Shown in pieces: positions 19,861 through 26,771 of a stretch of 64,000 nt of DNA. Each line of letters opens with the position of its first letter. Within the stretch, counting starts at the first letter, position 1. The position numbers were made by a program, and so were the translations under genes. Source of the stretch: an uncultured Bacteroidota bacterium (GTDB taxonomy: Bacteria > Bacteroidota > Bacteroidia > Chitinophagales > Chitinophagaceae). A model generated the notes under the pieces. That model was not told the origin of the DNA and did not search any database. It saw only the letters and a program-made list of their open reading frames with translations. The stretch is taken from contig CAIKZP010000037.1 of NCBI GenBank assembly GCA_903831935.1, positions 1 through 64,000 of the forward strand, in the 5' to 3' direction.

Positions 19861-20544
19861 TTAATCTGCAAGTTCTATTTTTCTTTTCTGTTCCATTCTT
19901 TCTGCTCTTTTAATCAGTCCGGATAATCCATAACGAAGCACAAATGGAATTGTCAACGGAATTAAGCGGCCCAACATGGGGTATGCAAATGAAACCACAA
20001 GCGATAAAATAAAAATAGTTGGCAATACCATTGTAAAGAAAAGTCCTAGCTGTATTCTTTCTTTTGAAATTACATGGGTTAATAGGCTTCTTTTAGGATT
20101 ACTAACATAAACCCATAAAAGGGCATTCATAATGGCTGTAAGGCAGATATTAATCACATAAAAGGCATAAGGTAAAAGCATATCACTTTCAGAAGCATAT
20201 TCGCCCAATAAACCTGAACTGAATGGCAATAATACTACCGAAAATAAAAAGAAGAGGTTTAGCCAAATTAGGTCATTGGTATAGTGTTCAATATAGCCAA
20301 ACACGCGGTGATGTACCGACCAGTAATAACCAACAATACAGAAGCTAATAATAAAACCTAAAAACTGCCAACCCATTTCATGTAGTTTTTCCCAAAGCAA
20401 TTTATCTTCTGGATGTGCTATTACAGGCACTTTAAATTCAATGACCAATAATGTAATAGCAATAGCAAATACGCCATCTGTAAAAAAGGATATTCTATCT
20501 AATTGAAAATGTGTTTTTGATTTATTGTGTTTAGCTTCTGCCAT
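19861..20544 (-). CDS. TMEM175-family potassium channel (DUF1211)
   Basis: This 227-residue membrane protein has six predicted helices. It contains the TMEM175 pore-lining signature in the form RISFFTDGVFAIAITLLVIE, with FTDG in place of the usual FSDG. Bacterial TMEM175 proteins are tetrameric K+ channels that lack the classical selectivity filter. The ORF track starts at a TTG; the ATG four codons on is preferred and still overlaps the cyclase stop by 14 nt, so translation is probably coupled. Coupling a K+ channel to a cyclase suggests ion flux as an output of this signalling operon, which is inference. Confidence 0.85.
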   Translation of the reverse strand: MAEAKHNKSKTHFQLDRISFFTDGVFAIAITLLVIEFKVPVIAHPEDKLLWEKLHEMGWQFLGFIISFCIVGYYWSVHHRVFGYIEHYTNDLIWLNLFFLFSVVLLPFSSGLLGEYASESDMLLPYAFYVINICLTAIMNALLWVYVSNPKRSLLTHVISKERIQLGLFFTMVLPTIFILSLVVSFAYPMLGRLIPLTIPFVLRYGLSGLIKRAERMEQKRKIELAD

Positions 20545-22657
20545 GATACGATGCAATTTTATTAGTTATATCAACTATTATTTTATTTTTATTTTTTGTT
20601 CTTAATTTATTAGCGGTTTTTGTAAAGTAGGTATGTGATTCAAGAAAGTTTTTTTGAATCACCAGCCAATCAATTTCAGAAATAGTATTTTTTAAAGAAA
20701 TTTCTTTTAACAATAAGCCACTTATTTCTGCATAATTGTCTTTGCCTATATAATCTAGGTCTGCGTCGCAAATAATTTTTTCTAATAAATTTTTTGGACT
20801 TTGCGGAATTTTAGTAGCCATAATCATTCCGTTTATTTTTTCAATGATATCTACTGAAAATCCTAACTGTGTTAAAATTGTTTTTGCATACTCACAACCC
20901 TTTTTTTCGTGATCAACAGGGCTCCAAACAAATCCAATATCATGTAGCCATGCGGCTAATTGTAAGTACAGCAAGTCTTGTTTAGAAACTTGTTCTTTTT
21001 TTCCATAAAATTTAACTGCATCAACTACCGATTTTATATGGTGTATATTATGGTAACTAGAACTTGTTGGAATATTATTTGTTTGGAATGATTCTAGCAT
21101 TTCAAACAAGGCTAGATAGGTAATTTCAGTATTTTTTTTGTGTTGGATAGAGCGAATAGCAATTGGTTTTGTTTTACCCTTTACTTTAATTGGGGTTAGC
21201 TTTTGGCAATTGTATTTTTTCTTTTCTTTTGTGTTTTCCCAAACACTATTTGAAATAATTATTTCGCCCACTTTAGCGGCAGAACACAATCTTGATGCAA
21301 GGTTTACCGCATCGCCAATTACAGTATAATTCATTTGTTGGCTAGATCCTATATTTCCGCTAATAACTTTACCTCTATTAATGCCAATACCAATTTCAAC
21401 AGGAAGTTTTCCATTAATAATTCGGTTCTGGTTAAATGCTACTAGTTTTTCTTGCATTTCAACTGCAGTTAATAGGGCATTGTCTGCATCATTTGTGTCG
21501 GGGAGTGGGGCGCCAAAAACCACCATTAAAGCATCCCCAATAATTTTGTCTAGTGTACCATTGTATTTAAAAATCACTTCAATCATTTGGTTGAAGTAGT
21601 CGTTTAAGGTGTCTACTACTTCGTTTGGAACCATTTTTTCAGACATGGCTGTGAACCCTCTAATATCAGTAAACAGAATAGTTACTTCTTGTTCTTGACC
21701 ACCTAAATTGAGAAGGTCTTCATTAATAAGAATTTGGTCTACAATTTGTTTGGATACATATTTTTGAAAAGTAGATTTTAGTTTGTCGAGATTAGACAAA
21801 TCTTCCATGGCTATAACAGTGCCAATATGTTGTTGTTGGTCATTTAAAAGCGGAGACATGGAAATATTAACGGCTGTTTTTTTTCCATGAAAATCAAGTA
21901 TTAAATTAGATTCAGATTTAAATTCAAGTGCTGATTCTGATTCTAGTAATAAGTTAATAAGTAATTCATTTTGGTCAAATACAAAGCCATAATGGTGTCC
22001 TATAAAACTAGCCCGATCTTTATTTAAAATCTTTTCAGCCGTTAAATTTATATGATTGATTTCTCCAAATAAATTGGTAGTTATTACACCAGTAGCAATT
22101 GATTCCATGACATTGTCGTTGAACGATTTTGCCTGTTGAATTTTTTCTAATAATTGAATATTGCTATAGGCAGTGCTAGCCTGAGATGCAATTGCAGAAA
22201 TCATGCTACTATCGGAGTCGTCAAATGCCGACAAGCCTTTACGGCTTTCCTTGTCTAACAAAACAATAAAACCAATTATATCTTTTTTCTGTTGTAAAGG
22301 TGCAATGATGGCATATTTGGCATTTATTTTAGACAAATGCACATTGCTATCTATATCTAAACAAACGGTTTTGCCAATACTCTTTATATCGTAAACAAAT
22401 CCTTTTTTCTTATTAAAAATAATGGAACGTAAAGGAGTGATATTGATGTTGAAATGCGCTTCAATATTTAAAATATCAGTATTGGAATCTTCTAATAAAA
22501 TAAAACCTGCAGAAGCATTGAGTACACCACATGATTTCACTAGAATTTCTTGTAATAAATCAGGGGTGTTTTCGAATGAGTTTAAGTTATTGGTAAAATC
22601 CAATAATGTTTCTAACTCTAGGTATTTTACCTGTAACGCTTCAATACTTATTTCCAT
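20531..22657 (-). CDS. GAF-PAS-class III adenylate cyclase-HD domain protein
   Basis: This 708-residue soluble signalling enzyme has four parts. A GAF sensor (about residues 20-165) and a PAS domain (about 175-290) are followed by a class III cyclase (about 310-500) and a C-terminal HD phosphohydrolase (about 535-700). The cyclase looks active: metal Asp residues in LFTDIRGF and IIGDALMV, the adenine-type Lys in LDKIIGD, and the Asn-Arg pair in GDAVNLASRL. The HD part keeps YHNIHH, WLHDIGF and CDADLDYIG. One chain may therefore both make and break a nucleotide second messenger. Start ATG is 2 nt after the STAS stop; the stop overlaps the K+ channel gene. Confidence 0.88.
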   Translation of the reverse strand: MEISIEALQVKYLELETLLDFTNNLNSFENTPDLLQEILVKSCGVLNASAGFILLEDSNTDILNIEAHFNINITPLRSIIFNKKKGFVYDIKSIGKTVCLDIDSNVHLSKINAKYAIIAPLQQKKDIIGFIVLLDKESRKGLSAFDDSDSSMISAIASQASTAYSNIQLLEKIQQAKSFNDNVMESIATGVITTNLFGEINHINLTAEKILNKDRASFIGHHYGFVFDQNELLINLLLESESALEFKSESNLILDFHGKKTAVNISMSPLLNDQQQHIGTVIAMEDLSNLDKLKSTFQKYVSKQIVDQILINEDLLNLGGQEQEVTILFTDIRGFTAMSEKMVPNEVVDTLNDYFNQMIEVIFKYNGTLDKIIGDALMVVFGAPLPDTNDADNALLTAVEMQEKLVAFNQNRIINGKLPVEIGIGINRGKVISGNIGSSQQMNYTVIGDAVNLASRLCSAAKVGEIIISNSVWENTKEKKKYNCQKLTPIKVKGKTKPIAIRSIQHKKNTEITYLALFEMLESFQTNNIPTSSSYHNIHHIKSVVDAVKFYGKKEQVSKQDLLYLQLAAWLHDIGFVWSPVDHEKKGCEYAKTILTQLGFSVDIIEKINGMIMATKIPQSPKNLLEKIICDADLDYIGKDNYAEISGLLLKEISLKNTISEIDWLVIQKNFLESHTYFTKTANKLRTKNKNKIIVDITNKIASYHGRS

Positions 22658-22659
22658 TA

Positions 22660-23001
22660 TTAAAATTCAGCCAATGCTGATTCTTCGGTTTTATATAATG
22701 ATGAATATTTAGATAAGCCCATAATATGGAATGTTTTTTCAACAATAGGAGCCATATTATAATAGCCAAGTTTTCCTTCAACCTCTTGTAATTTTTCTAT
22801 TACTTCAATTAAAATAGAAACGCCAATACTATTAACTACTTTGGTTCCAGTTAAATTTATTAGAAATTTCCTGCTACCTAAATTCATTTTTTCTATACAA
22901 ATATCATAAACTTTCTGGCCACCTTCGTTATTTAAGTATCCTTCCGTTTCTATTATTACAACCTCATTTAATTCTTTTACCAGTGTTTTAAAATCGCTCA
23001 T
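22660..23001 (-). CDS. STAS-domain anti-sigma factor antagonist-like protein
   Basis: This 113-residue single-domain STAS protein has the phosphorylation-loop region KVVNSIGVSILIEVI. The Ser is the likely target of the RsbW-like kinase encoded just upstream, although the usual preceding Asp is replaced by Asn. In partner switching, unphosphorylated STAS protein binds the kinase or an effector. Spacing is 1 nt from the kinase stop and 2 nt to the cyclase start. No PP2C phosphatase gene (RsbU or SpoIIE type) is present in the operon. Confidence 0.88.
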   Translation of the reverse strand: MSDFKTLVKELNEVVIIETEGYLNNEGGQKVYDICIEKMNLGSRKFLINLTGTKVVNSIGVSILIEVIEKLQEVEGKLGYYNMAPIVEKTFHIMGLSKYSSLYKTEESALAEF

Positions 23002-23002
23002 T

Positions 23003-23413
23003 TTATTTATTTTTTATCATTGTTATAGTAGTGCCAGCATTAGTTGATTCGAATTCAACAGAATCCATTAAGGCTTGAATTAACTGTAAACCCCATCCGC
23101 GTTTACGTTCGTCATTTCCAATTTTATTTTCAATTTTTGGTATTTCAACTTTTGATTTATCAAAACCAATTCCCTGGTCAATAACTTTAATTATCATTGA
23201 ATTTTCTTCAACGATAAAATGAATATAAATACTGTTTTCTGTTTTGGAATGTTCAAAAGCATTGATGCATGCTTCAATTAGGGCCATAGATATTTCTCCA
23301 CTTTGTTCTTCAGATAAATGCATGTGGTTAGCAATAATATCTGCTGTTTGAGTGGCAATTAACTCCATATTGGGTAAAATAGGGAGTTTTAATTCAACTG
23401 TTGGTGATTTCAT
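23003..23413 (-). CDS. RsbW/SpoIIAB-like ATP-binding serine kinase
   Basis: This 136-residue GHKL ATPase of the anti-sigma (HATPase_c_2) type shows the N-box ALIEACINAFEHS, the G1 box VIDQGIGFD and the G2 box RGWGLQLIQALMD. It should phosphorylate the STAS protein encoded next, or bind a partner protein. It is the first gene of the minus operon that continues with STAS, cyclase and K+ channel genes. No linked sigma factor is seen, so the regulated partner may be the cyclase or lie elsewhere in the genome. Confidence 0.88.
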   Translation of the reverse strand: MKSPTVELKLPILPNMELIATQTADIIANHMHLSEEQSGEISMALIEACINAFEHSKTENSIYIHFIVEENSMIIKVIDQGIGFDKSKVEIPKIENKIGNDERKRGWGLQLIQALMDSVEFESTNAGTTITMIKNK

Positions 23414-24080: not shown

Positions 24081-24096
24081 ATTTTTTCTAGAATTG

Positions 24097-26019
24097 ATGA
24101 AATTGACAAATAAATACAATAATGATTTCCTGAAAAATGTTTTGGATAATATAAGTGATGCTATATTATTTGAATCATTTGATCATACCATTTTGTATGT
24201 CAATAAACATTTTTGCAATCTATTTAAAGTGCCAGTTAGCCCCAATGAACTAATAGGGATTGATTGTTCAAATGTGGCACAATCAGCAAAAAAATTATTT
24301 AAAGACCCAGAACGCTTTGTTAATAGGATTAATCAAGTATATCTAAACAAAGAGAATATAGTTAATGAAGAGGTTTTCTTTAAAGATGGTAGAGTGGTTT
24401 ATATGGATTATACAATAATTGATGATGTAACAGGGAAAGGCCATATGTGGACATATAAAAACATGTCTATTCTTAAAACTTCTTTAGAAACTATTACAGG
24501 ACAAAAAGAGTTCTACGAGAACTTATTAAACAATATTCCTGCCGATATTGCCATATTTAATGATAAGCACCAATATGTTTTTGTAAATAGCATTGGTGTG
24601 AAATCTACTGAATTAAGTAAATGGATTATAGGTAAAGACGATTTTGAATATGTATCATATCGTAACCGTCCAAAAAGTATTGCAGAAAGACGTCGCGCTG
24701 CTTTTGATAAAGCGAAGCTTACTCAAAAAAGTGTTGAAATGGAGGAGATCTCTATAAATGATAAAAATATTTCTACTCATATTCTTAGAAAGTTTTATCC
24801 TGTATATGAGAACGGTGAATTTTTAAGCATGATAGGCTATGGTATTGATATTACTAGTATTCGAGAGTCGGAGAAAGAAGTAATTGTAATGGATGCCTTG
24901 TTTAGTACACTTATTGAAAATACCAATGAATTGGTGATTACGGTAGATTCTTCATTGAAAATTCAATTTGCCAATGCTAAATGGATTAACAATACAGGCT
25001 TCTCTTACTATACAACATTACAGTCGAGCATTTCGAACTTCATAAGTGAAAATGAAAATAAATTCATAGAAACTTTAAATTATTTCTTTGAACATGAACA
25101 ATATAATACCAATAAAAGAGAAGTAGTAATAAATGCATTTAACAAAAACAAAATCACGCTAAAGTTCGATTTGACAAAATATTCTCAGAAAGGTTGGGAA
25201 ACTCCAAGAGTGATGATTTTCTTCACAGATATTACTGAACAAGTTAAAAACGAAACAGAGTTTAAGAAAAATCTAACAAAAGAAAAACACCTAAATGAAT
25301 TGAAAACAAATTTCATGAATATGGTGTCGCACGAATTAAGAACTCCCTTGTCTGTAATACTTTCTAACACAGAATTATTAGTTCATAAATTACAAAAAAT
25401 ACAAAACGATACAGTAAAAAAACATACAGATATGATCGTCAACCAAATTGATGGTATGATTAATTTGTTAAATGAATTTTTATTTATTAGTAAAGTGGAG
25501 TCTGGTAAAATATTAATTCAGTTAGAATCAATATCTATTGTAGAACAAATTAAAAAAATAACCAAAGAGCAATTTAATCCTTGGATAGATGGTAGAAAAG
25601 TTGCTATTAAAATAGTAAATAAACCTAGAGATGTTTATTTTGATATAAAAATGCTCGGTCATATTGTAAGTAATTTATTTAACAATGCATTTAAATATTC
25701 ATCAGGAGCGTCGAATCCTGTATTAGAAATAAAATTCTATTCAAATAAATTTGTTTTAAATTTTATTGATCAGGGAATTGGCATTAGTTTAGAAGACCAA
25801 AAAAAGTTATTTCAACCTTTTGCTAGGGGCGAAAACGTTGGCTTAATAGAAGGTACTGGATTAGGTTTGGTAATTGTAAAGTATTTTTCAGAACAACACA
25901 ATGGAGAAATAAGTATAGAAAGCCAAATAGATAAAGGAACAACCATTTCACTAACATTTCCCTATTTAATTCCAAATAAAGAAACCATAAAATCAAATAA
26001 ATCTTTAAATTTTTACTAA
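24097..26019 (+). CDS. PAS-domain sensor histidine kinase
   Basis: This 640-residue soluble kinase has three PAS-like regions (about residues 10-125, 140-265 and 275-390), then a HisKA dimerisation domain with the phospho-His in FMNMVSHELRTPLSVI, and a HATPase domain with N-box NLFNNAFKYS, DQGIGIS and GTGLGLVIVKYF. The ORF track begins at TTG; the ATG one codon later is preferred. The stop overlaps the response-regulator ATG by 1 nt, so the pair is cognate. The first two PAS domains resemble those of the kinase at 28061-30259. There are no membrane segments, so it senses an intracellular cue. Confidence 0.92.
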   Translation: MKLTNKYNNDFLKNVLDNISDAILFESFDHTILYVNKHFCNLFKVPVSPNELIGIDCSNVAQSAKKLFKDPERFVNRINQVYLNKENIVNEEVFFKDGRVVYMDYTIIDDVTGKGHMWTYKNMSILKTSLETITGQKEFYENLLNNIPADIAIFNDKHQYVFVNSIGVKSTELSKWIIGKDDFEYVSYRNRPKSIAERRRAAFDKAKLTQKSVEMEEISINDKNISTHILRKFYPVYENGEFLSMIGYGIDITSIRESEKEVIVMDALFSTLIENTNELVITVDSSLKIQFANAKWINNTGFSYYTTLQSSISNFISENENKFIETLNYFFEHEQYNTNKREVVINAFNKNKITLKFDLTKYSQKGWETPRVMIFFTDITEQVKNETEFKKNLTKEKHLNELKTNFMNMVSHELRTPLSVILSNTELLVHKLQKIQNDTVKKHTDMIVNQIDGMINLLNEFLFISKVESGKILIQLESISIVEQIKKITKEQFNPWIDGRKVAIKIVNKPRDVYFDIKMLGHIVSNLFNNAFKYSSGASNPVLEIKFYSNKFVLNFIDQGIGISLEDQKKLFQPFARGENVGLIEGTGLGLVIVKYFSEQHNGEISIESQIDKGTTISLTFPYLIPNKETIKSNKSLNFY

Positions 26020-26771
26020 TGAAACCCACAGTTTGTATTGTAGAAGATAACGACCAATTAAGAGAAGCCCTAGTTGAGTTACTCAATAGCGAGTTTGAAA
26101 TTACCGCACTTGAAAATGGCACTAGATTAATGGGCTACTTAGAAATTAAATTACCTGATTTAATTTTATTAGACATTATGCTTCCTTTCCCTTTAGATGG
26201 GTTTACTATTTTAAGGTTATTAAAAAACAATGAATTGCTTTCTGCTATACCAGTCATTTTAATGTCGGCTATCAATAGCGAAGATAAAATTACAGAGGGA
26301 TTAGAACTGGGCGCCAATGATTATGTGGTAAAACCATTCAAGTCAACAAATCTATTCTTAAAAATAAAGAACCAAATTTCTTTACATAAAGGGAAAGAGG
26401 CGGCTATTGAAAAAAGTAAGCTTCAAAAAGCAAATCATTTTATTGAATCGCCATCTAATGGATTTAAGAAAAAGTTCGATGCAATTATGGATGAAATTTC
26501 AGACAATACCAATATTAGTATTGAAGAGATATCAGCAAAAATGCTAATGAGCGTTTCTACCTTCGAAAGATGGATGAAAAAAATATATGGCACTAGTCCG
26601 CGTAAATATATTCTTTCATACAAGTTGTCTAAAGCAGAAATTATGTTAAGGCAAAATTTAGGATCAGTAAAAGATATTGCCTATTTATTAGGATTTAATT
26701 CAGTCTCATATTTCTGTTCAAGTTTTAAGGAAAAATATGGTAAGAGTCCTTTGAATTACATTAAAAACTAA
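26019..26771 (+). CDS. Response regulator with AraC-type DNA-binding domain
   Basis: This 250-residue protein has a receiver domain (about residues 3-118) with acidic residues in VEDND, the phospho-acceptor Asp in LILLDIMLP and the Lys in YVVKPF. A C-terminal AraC/XylS double helix-turn-helix follows (about 150-250), with ISAKMLMSVSTFERWMK and DIAYLLGFNSVSYFCSSF. It should be phosphorylated by the kinase encoded immediately upstream and then control transcription. Targets are not evident; the adjacent membrane DHp gene, 14 nt downstream, is in the same transcript. Confidence 0.92.
   Translation: MKPTVCIVEDNDQLREALVELLNSEFEITALENGTRLMGYLEIKLPDLILLDIMLPFPLDGFTILRLLKNNELLSAIPVILMSAINSEDKITEGLELGANDYVVKPFKSTNLFLKIKNQISLHKGKEAAIEKSKLQKANHFIESPSNGFKKKFDAIMDEISDNTNISIEEISAKMLMSVSTFERWMKKIYGTSPRKYILSYKLSKAEIMLRQNLGSVKDIAYLLGFNSVSYFCSSFKEKYGKSPLNYIKN

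Follow-up and report, generated by a model that had tools for sequence, protein, structure and literature searches.

A conserved operon in freshwater Bacteroidota joins partner-switch proteins, a class III cyclase-HD protein and a TMEM175-family channel, with a possible link between second messenger and ion transport

Organization of the operon

The DNA analyzed here, referred to as the window, is the whole 64,000-nucleotide (nt) stretch at positions 1 to 64,000 of contig CAIKZP010000037.1 (assembly GCA_903831935.1) of an uncultured Bacteroidota bacterium of the family Chitinophagaceae. Pfam searches and open reading frame (ORF) coordinates identified four genes on its minus strand (23413-19861). 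In order of transcription, their products are a kinase resembling RsbW, a protein of the STAS type, a fusion of GAF, PAS, class III cyclase and HD domains, and a channel of the TMEM175 family. The first gene (23003..23413) encodes an RsbW/SpoIIAB-like serine kinase of 136 amino acids (aa) that matched PF13581 (HATPase_c_2) with 82 bits and the RsbW structure 6m36 of the PDB with an E-value (E) of 1.5e-9. It is followed by the gene of a 113-aa STAS anti-sigma-antagonist-like protein with the predicted phosphoacceptor Ser58 (22660..23001; PF01740) and by that of the 708-aa cyclase-HD protein (20531..22657), the domains of which were assigned by Pfam. The last gene (19861..20544) encodes a TMEM175-family protein (PF06736, 96 bits against a cut-off of 25) of 227 aa if translation starts at the ATG at 20544; an alternative TTG start at 20556 would extend it to 231 aa.

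The genes are tightly packed: 1 nt separates rsbW from the STAS gene and 2 nt separate the latter from the cyclase gene, whereas the 3' end of the cyclase gene and the 5' end of the channel gene overlap by 14 nt (20531..20544, minus strand, ORF coordinates). Translational coupling of the two is possible, and in related genomes the spacing between them ranges from -20 to +8 nt. The original prediction, made from the sequence of the window alone, had described a four-gene layout with gaps of 1-2 nt or overlaps, and the recomputed coordinates, domains and spacing agree with it.

Conservation of the operon in the genus

The window genome is a 3.5 Mb draft of 212 contigs, and the related contigs come from freshwater Bacteroidota, some of them labelled Chitinophagaceae. 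The absence counts given here are bounded by the quality of the metagenome-assembled genomes. A full-length cyclase was found in 22 of the 147 genus genomes, two of these copies being fragmented or split. A TMEM175 orthologue directly follows the cyclase gene in 21 of the 22, and in the remaining genome (G012) the contig ends at this point. Co-occurrence was also evident over all 147 genomes (both genes in 21, cyclase only in 1, channel only in 2, neither in 123; Fisher p = 3.8e-22), although this value reflects linkage and not a number of independent events, because the related genomes are not independent of each other. Thus, the association of channel and cyclase in relatives, set beforehand as one of two tests on which the original prediction could fail, was borne out. 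In one more genome (G087), a contig begins with a fragment of the HD domain, and the channel gene comes next. The TMEM175 proteins of the relatives share 67-75% identity, apart from one sister sequence at 94%.

The order RsbW, STAS, cyclase, TMEM175 was kept wherever the contig was long enough, and it recurs at about 59% cyclase identity with differing outer flanks. Since the order persists beside different flanks and channel and cyclase co-occur, the four-gene cluster is not a chance adjacency, and this explanation was rejected.

In the window, a papain-like protease gene on the opposite strand ends 14 nt downstream of the operon, and a divergent histidine kinase gene starts about 680 nt upstream; this PAS histidine kinase and an AraC-type response regulator occupy positions 24094-26771. 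A promoter and terminator scan of the operon gave nothing decisive: predicted promoters did not exceed the shuffle mean, and five terminators were predicted against two expected.

The partner-switching proteins

The N-box residues E47 and N51 of the GHKL fold were invariant in RsbW across 10 relatives, and the protein aligned with RsbW 6m36. In the STAS protein, the motif NSIG aligned with DSSG in the phosphorylated region of SpoIIAA (chain 1th8_B), and its Ser58 was likewise invariant in 10 relatives. Where the contigs of relatives extend far enough, most of them encode, immediately upstream of rsbW, a protein of about 1080 aa that combines a Reg_prop beta-propeller, Y_Y_Y and a SpoIIE/PP2C phosphatase domain; TMEM175 is often followed by genes for one to three TPR-SpoIIE proteins (about 630 aa). 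The components that characterize a partner-switching module, namely an N-box kinase, a STAS protein with a phosphoacceptor serine and a PP2C/SpoIIE phosphatase partner, were therefore all found.

The window locus and its 94% sister carry no beta-propeller/SpoIIE phosphatase gene upstream of rsbW. The window genome, however, has a second locus (contig G000:C107; L098 5467-9466) with the order PP2C-RsbW-STAS and no cyclase; its RsbW shares 85% and its STAS 88% identity with the window copies. The arrangement of the two loci looks like the outcome of a duplication followed by complementary loss. The original prediction of a partner switch recognized the kinase/STAS pair and missed the phosphatase, which lies upstream in most relatives and at the second locus here.

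RsbW of the window subtype (E<=1e-20) was detected in one of 395 genomes of the class and two of 399 of the order; both genomes carry the cyclase. It was not found in the sampled congeners without cyclase. As the subtype occurred only together with the cyclase in the sampled genomes, this RsbW looks dedicated to the cyclase system.

The cyclase-HD protein

No other protein of the window genome matched the cyclase-HD query at E<=0.001. Its domains, all on the minus strand, comprise an N-terminal helix (residues 8-25; 22583..22636), a GAF domain (residues 33-163; 22169..22561; GAF_3 E 4.2e-5, 24.4 bits, just under the curated cut-off of 27), a PAS domain (residues 181-288; 21794..22117; PAS and PAS_9 above cut-off), a class III catalytic domain (residues 322-498; 21164..21694; PF00211, Guanylate_cyc, E 4.6e-34) and an HD phosphohydrolase domain (residues 516-708; 20534..21112; PF01966, 23.5 bits against a cut-off of 22).

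The catalytic domain aligned with CyaC-type structures and contains the full set of class III adenylate cyclase residues, that is, two metal-binding aspartates, lysine, threonine/aspartate, asparagine and arginine (D331, K371, D375, T445, N452, R456). All 80 cyclase-HD proteins compared had D331, K371 and D375; position 445 was threonine in 26 and aspartate in 54 of them, either of which we take, from established knowledge, to be an adenylate-type substrate residue. Judging from these residues, the product is most likely cyclic AMP (cAMP). The HD residues H536, H540, H572, D573 and D631 were invariant in 101 of 101 homologues, and D633 is also part of the motif. The cyclase and HD motifs, the loss of both of which was the other test on which the original prediction could fail, are thus intact, as that prediction had noted, and conserved in these homologues. 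The HD domain was modelled with a predicted local distance difference test score (pLDDT) of 97.5; the best structural matches were 2pq7 and 2pjq, both uncharacterized HD hydrolases, and YpgQ, and the next was the phosphodiesterase PDE5A (7faq; E 1.7e-3, TM 0.72 of the query). The domain most likely hydrolyzes a nucleotide, perhaps the same messenger that the cyclase produces.

Outside the catalytic domain, conservation peaked in two helices: the one at the N terminus, where 11 of 18 positions do not vary among 21 proteins, and the linker preceding the cyclase (19 of 30). Both are candidate docking sites for STAS or RsbW. A full-length AlphaFold model of the cyclase, built with 11 sequences, was set aside (mean pLDDT 63.7, cyclase domain unresolved). 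In one relative (G026), the cyclase is split into two overlapping frames (L104:2258-4391) by a frameshift or an assembly error.

The TMEM175 channel

The channel matched the structures 5vre (E 2.6e-16) and 6w8n and contains the motif RxxxF[ST]D of the first transmembrane helix (TM1) as RISFFTD. R17, D23, A27, I28, T31 and L32 were invariant in 13 TMEM175 relatives, so the pore positions Ala27, Ile28 and Thr31 are conserved (compare PMC7176437). The channel may be selective for potassium; some bacterial TMEM175 channels conduct sodium, and the physiological function of the prokaryotic proteins is unknown, according to a review (PMC10216561).

Transporters beside cyclase-HD genes across Bacteroidia

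Cyclase-HD matches were detected at E<=1e-60 in 86 of the 395 sampled Bacteroidia genomes, about one fifth, some of them being HD or cyclase alone. The neighbours were surveyed at 60 loci with single reference sequences, by which diverged transporters may be missed. At 18 of the 60, the cyclase-HD gene adjoins that of a membrane transport-type protein. A SulP-STAS transporter with a C-terminal cyclic nucleotide monophosphate (cNMP)-binding domain is encoded directly upstream at eight loci (L179, L181, L185, L186, L189, L204, L234, L235); PPK2 follows at five of these. At five others a Na+/H+ exchanger-type protein is encoded directly downstream; a profile or Pfam match confirmed its cNMP domain in L200 (2320-5298), L226 (1425-4373) and L209, and L219 and L236 are truncated. 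In L209 and L219 the exchanger gene overlaps the cyclase-HD gene by 14 nt. YitT is located downstream of, or fused to, cyclase-HD at five loci, and a further 23 of the 60 encode beta-propeller-cyclase-HD proteins with no such transporter neighbour. Because the adjacent transporters carry cyclic-nucleotide domains, a link between the messenger and transport is plausible for the cyclase-HD family; for TMEM175 itself, such a link would follow by analogy with the cNMP-bearing transporters.

Other arrangements were also seen. In L178 (5886-7343) and L197 (3812-5269), an HD domain is fused to YitT-DUF2179 beside a response regulator-cyclase gene, and in L196 (5503-7751) the gene of a cNMP-binding hybrid histidine kinase overlaps a standalone HD gene.

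Proposed mechanism and alternative explanations

We propose that in this operon a partner switch controls a second-messenger enzyme which is in turn connected with ion transport, a reading to which we give an even chance of being correct. What was observed is the gene order, its conservation, the co-occurrence of the genes, the intact motifs and the transporter neighbours; the chemistry of each step, which component controls which, and how the messenger would reach the channel are inferred as follows. The membrane-anchored beta-propeller/Y_Y_Y/SpoIIE sensor phosphatase would dephosphorylate Ser58 of STAS, and the RsbW-like kinase would rephosphorylate it. The phosphorylation state of Ser58 would decide whether STAS (in its phosphorylated or dephosphorylated form) or freed RsbW binds the cyclase-HD protein, perhaps at the conserved N-terminal or linker helix, and would thereby set the cyclase output. 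Switching of the cyclase by STAS or RsbW is proposed by analogy with SiaABCD and HsbA-HsbD. The cyclase would make the messenger, most likely cAMP, and the HD domain would perhaps remove it; the co-transcribed TMEM175 would be the most likely local output, acted on via cAMP, via a cAMP receptor or by contact.

Several observations weigh against this proposal. The window TMEM175 has no cyclic-nucleotide-binding domain, and its gating by cAMP would follow by analogy. The idea of the original prediction that a second messenger controls potassium flux is partly supported: control of membrane transport in general is backed independently by the cNMP-domain transporters beside homologous cyclase-HD genes, and a response of this channel to cAMP is conjectural. 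Where class I phosphodiesterases have the signature HDxxHxxxxN, the HD domain has HD-x9-H/N-E. In G033, the sole such case shown, a 55%-identical TMEM175 stands without a cyclase. In two Cytophagaceae loci (L037/L038), the order is PP2C-RsbW-STAS-PP2C-cyclase-YitT; here, YitT takes the position of TMEM175, and the channel is therefore not essential to the module and is one of several membrane partners. The gene order, for which the original prediction had suggested a search across Bacteroidota, was thus kept at every intact locus in the genus, but the Cytophagaceae loci have YitT in place of the channel. Finally, the window genome encodes four cNMP-binding proteins, and the one that was checked is CRP-like with a CRP-type helix-turn-helix; such regulators could be alternative targets of cAMP.

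These last proteins underlie the reading that competes most directly with the proposed one, in which the switch controls the cyclase, cAMP acts on CRP-family regulators and TMEM175 is expressed alongside as a housekeeping leak channel that the pathway does not gate. The absence of a cNMP domain in TMEM175 and its solitary relative in G033 are in line with it. We nevertheless consider it fairly unlikely, as the linkage between the TMEM175 clade and the cyclase is nearly perfect, both physically and phyletically, and the cNMP-domain transporters beside homologous cyclase-HD genes favour transport outputs. Gating of TMEM175 by direct contact with the switch proteins or the cyclase, and no diffusible messenger, has a precedent in human TMEM175, which is opened by the binding of AKT independently of its kinase activity (PMC10216561), and the common operon would suit it. 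However, conservation of the cyclase active site is complete, although a protein serving only as a scaffold could do without it, and this alternative appears improbable.

The two remaining explanations were rejected. RsbW and STAS resemble RsbW and SpoIIAA, as expected if they control a sigma factor in the classical manner and share no more than a transcript with the cyclase and channel. The window genome, however, has no sigma-B/F/G factor above the curated cut-off (TIGR02980), which speaks against a classical sigma target; together with the restriction of the RsbW subtype to cyclase-bearing genomes among the sampled relatives, this makes the explanation very improbable. A Pycsar-like anti-phage defence, in which a cyclic pyrimidine opens a membrane effector, was suggested by matches of the cyclase domain to PADLOC PycC profiles (best 9e-26). 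These matches are generic for class III, K371 and T445 are of the adenylate type, and PADLOC found no Pycsar effector match on TMEM175. Moreover, the gene order is constant at about 59% identity, and a sensor phosphatase and a kinase are present; the chance that the operon is such a defence system is very small.

The proposed partner switch might also be one instance of a modular cyclic-nucleotide ion-flux system of Bacteroidota, in which a make-and-remove cyclase-HD protein is combined with interchangeable TMEM175, SulP-cNMP, exchanger-cNMP or YitT partners and in which, here, a periplasmic-sensor partner switch gates TMEM175. We regard this generalization as possible but somewhat doubtful.

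Comparison with known systems

In the open-access literature, we found no description of a partner switch with an adenylate cyclase, of TMEM175 operons, of HD-cyclase fusions or of SulP-cNMP transporters with a cyclase. The combination, which the original prediction had not recognized as described, therefore appears to be new, provisionally, because the search was limited to open-access text. The partner-switch-governed cyclases found there were diguanylate cyclases only; if the proposed mechanism is true, a class III cyclase joins the enzymes governed by partner switches.

The closest parallels come from Pseudomonas aeruginosa. In the SiaABCD operon, the gene of a nucleotide cyclase stands with those of a PP2C phosphatase, a kinase and a phosphoacceptor, and phosphorylation of the acceptor sets cyclase activity (PMC7647112, PMC8457831). 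The window system likewise has all four kinds of component; however, the acceptor SiaC belongs to the DUF1987 family and SiaD is a diguanylate (GGDEF) cyclase, whereas here the acceptor is a STAS protein, the cyclase is of class III with a fused HD domain, the phosphatase carries a beta-propeller and a channel gene is present. In the HptB/HsbR-HsbA-HsbD system, the phosphorylation of an anti-anti-sigma factor governs its binding to a cyclase that produces a messenger (PMC5085249), but the enzyme is a diguanylate cyclase, a second output runs via FlgM and there is no channel gene. Pycsar shares a class III-like cyclase and a membrane protein gene with the window operon, which differs in its adenylate-type residues, fused HD domain, switch proteins and lack of a Pycsar effector.

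CmTMEM175 (5VRE) and MtTMEM175 (PMC7176437) share the TM1 motif RxxxF[ST]D and the Ala/Ile/Thr pore positions with the window channel, but were studied as isolated channels. The operon would offer a first genomic clue to the function of bacterial TMEM175, with one clade tied to a defined signalling input and with gating that can be tested. Its retention in one freshwater Bacteroidota lineage suggests a switch-set second messenger tied to ion flux.

A functional tie between a class III cyclase and an ion transporter is also found in sperm, with soluble adenylyl cyclase (sAC) and SLC9C1 (PMC6052114, PMC6660944), the latter being a cAMP-regulated Na+/H+ exchanger (PMC6052114). That system is eukaryotic and has neither a partner switch nor an HD fusion, and the transport partner in the window, TMEM175, differs in having no cNMP domain. 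Other Bacteroidia cyclase-HD loci do have a cNMP-domain exchanger beside the cyclase, and the occurrence of cyclase-HD genes next to cNMP-domain transporters hints at a common bacterial control of ion transport by cAMP, similar to that of sperm sAC/SLC9C1.

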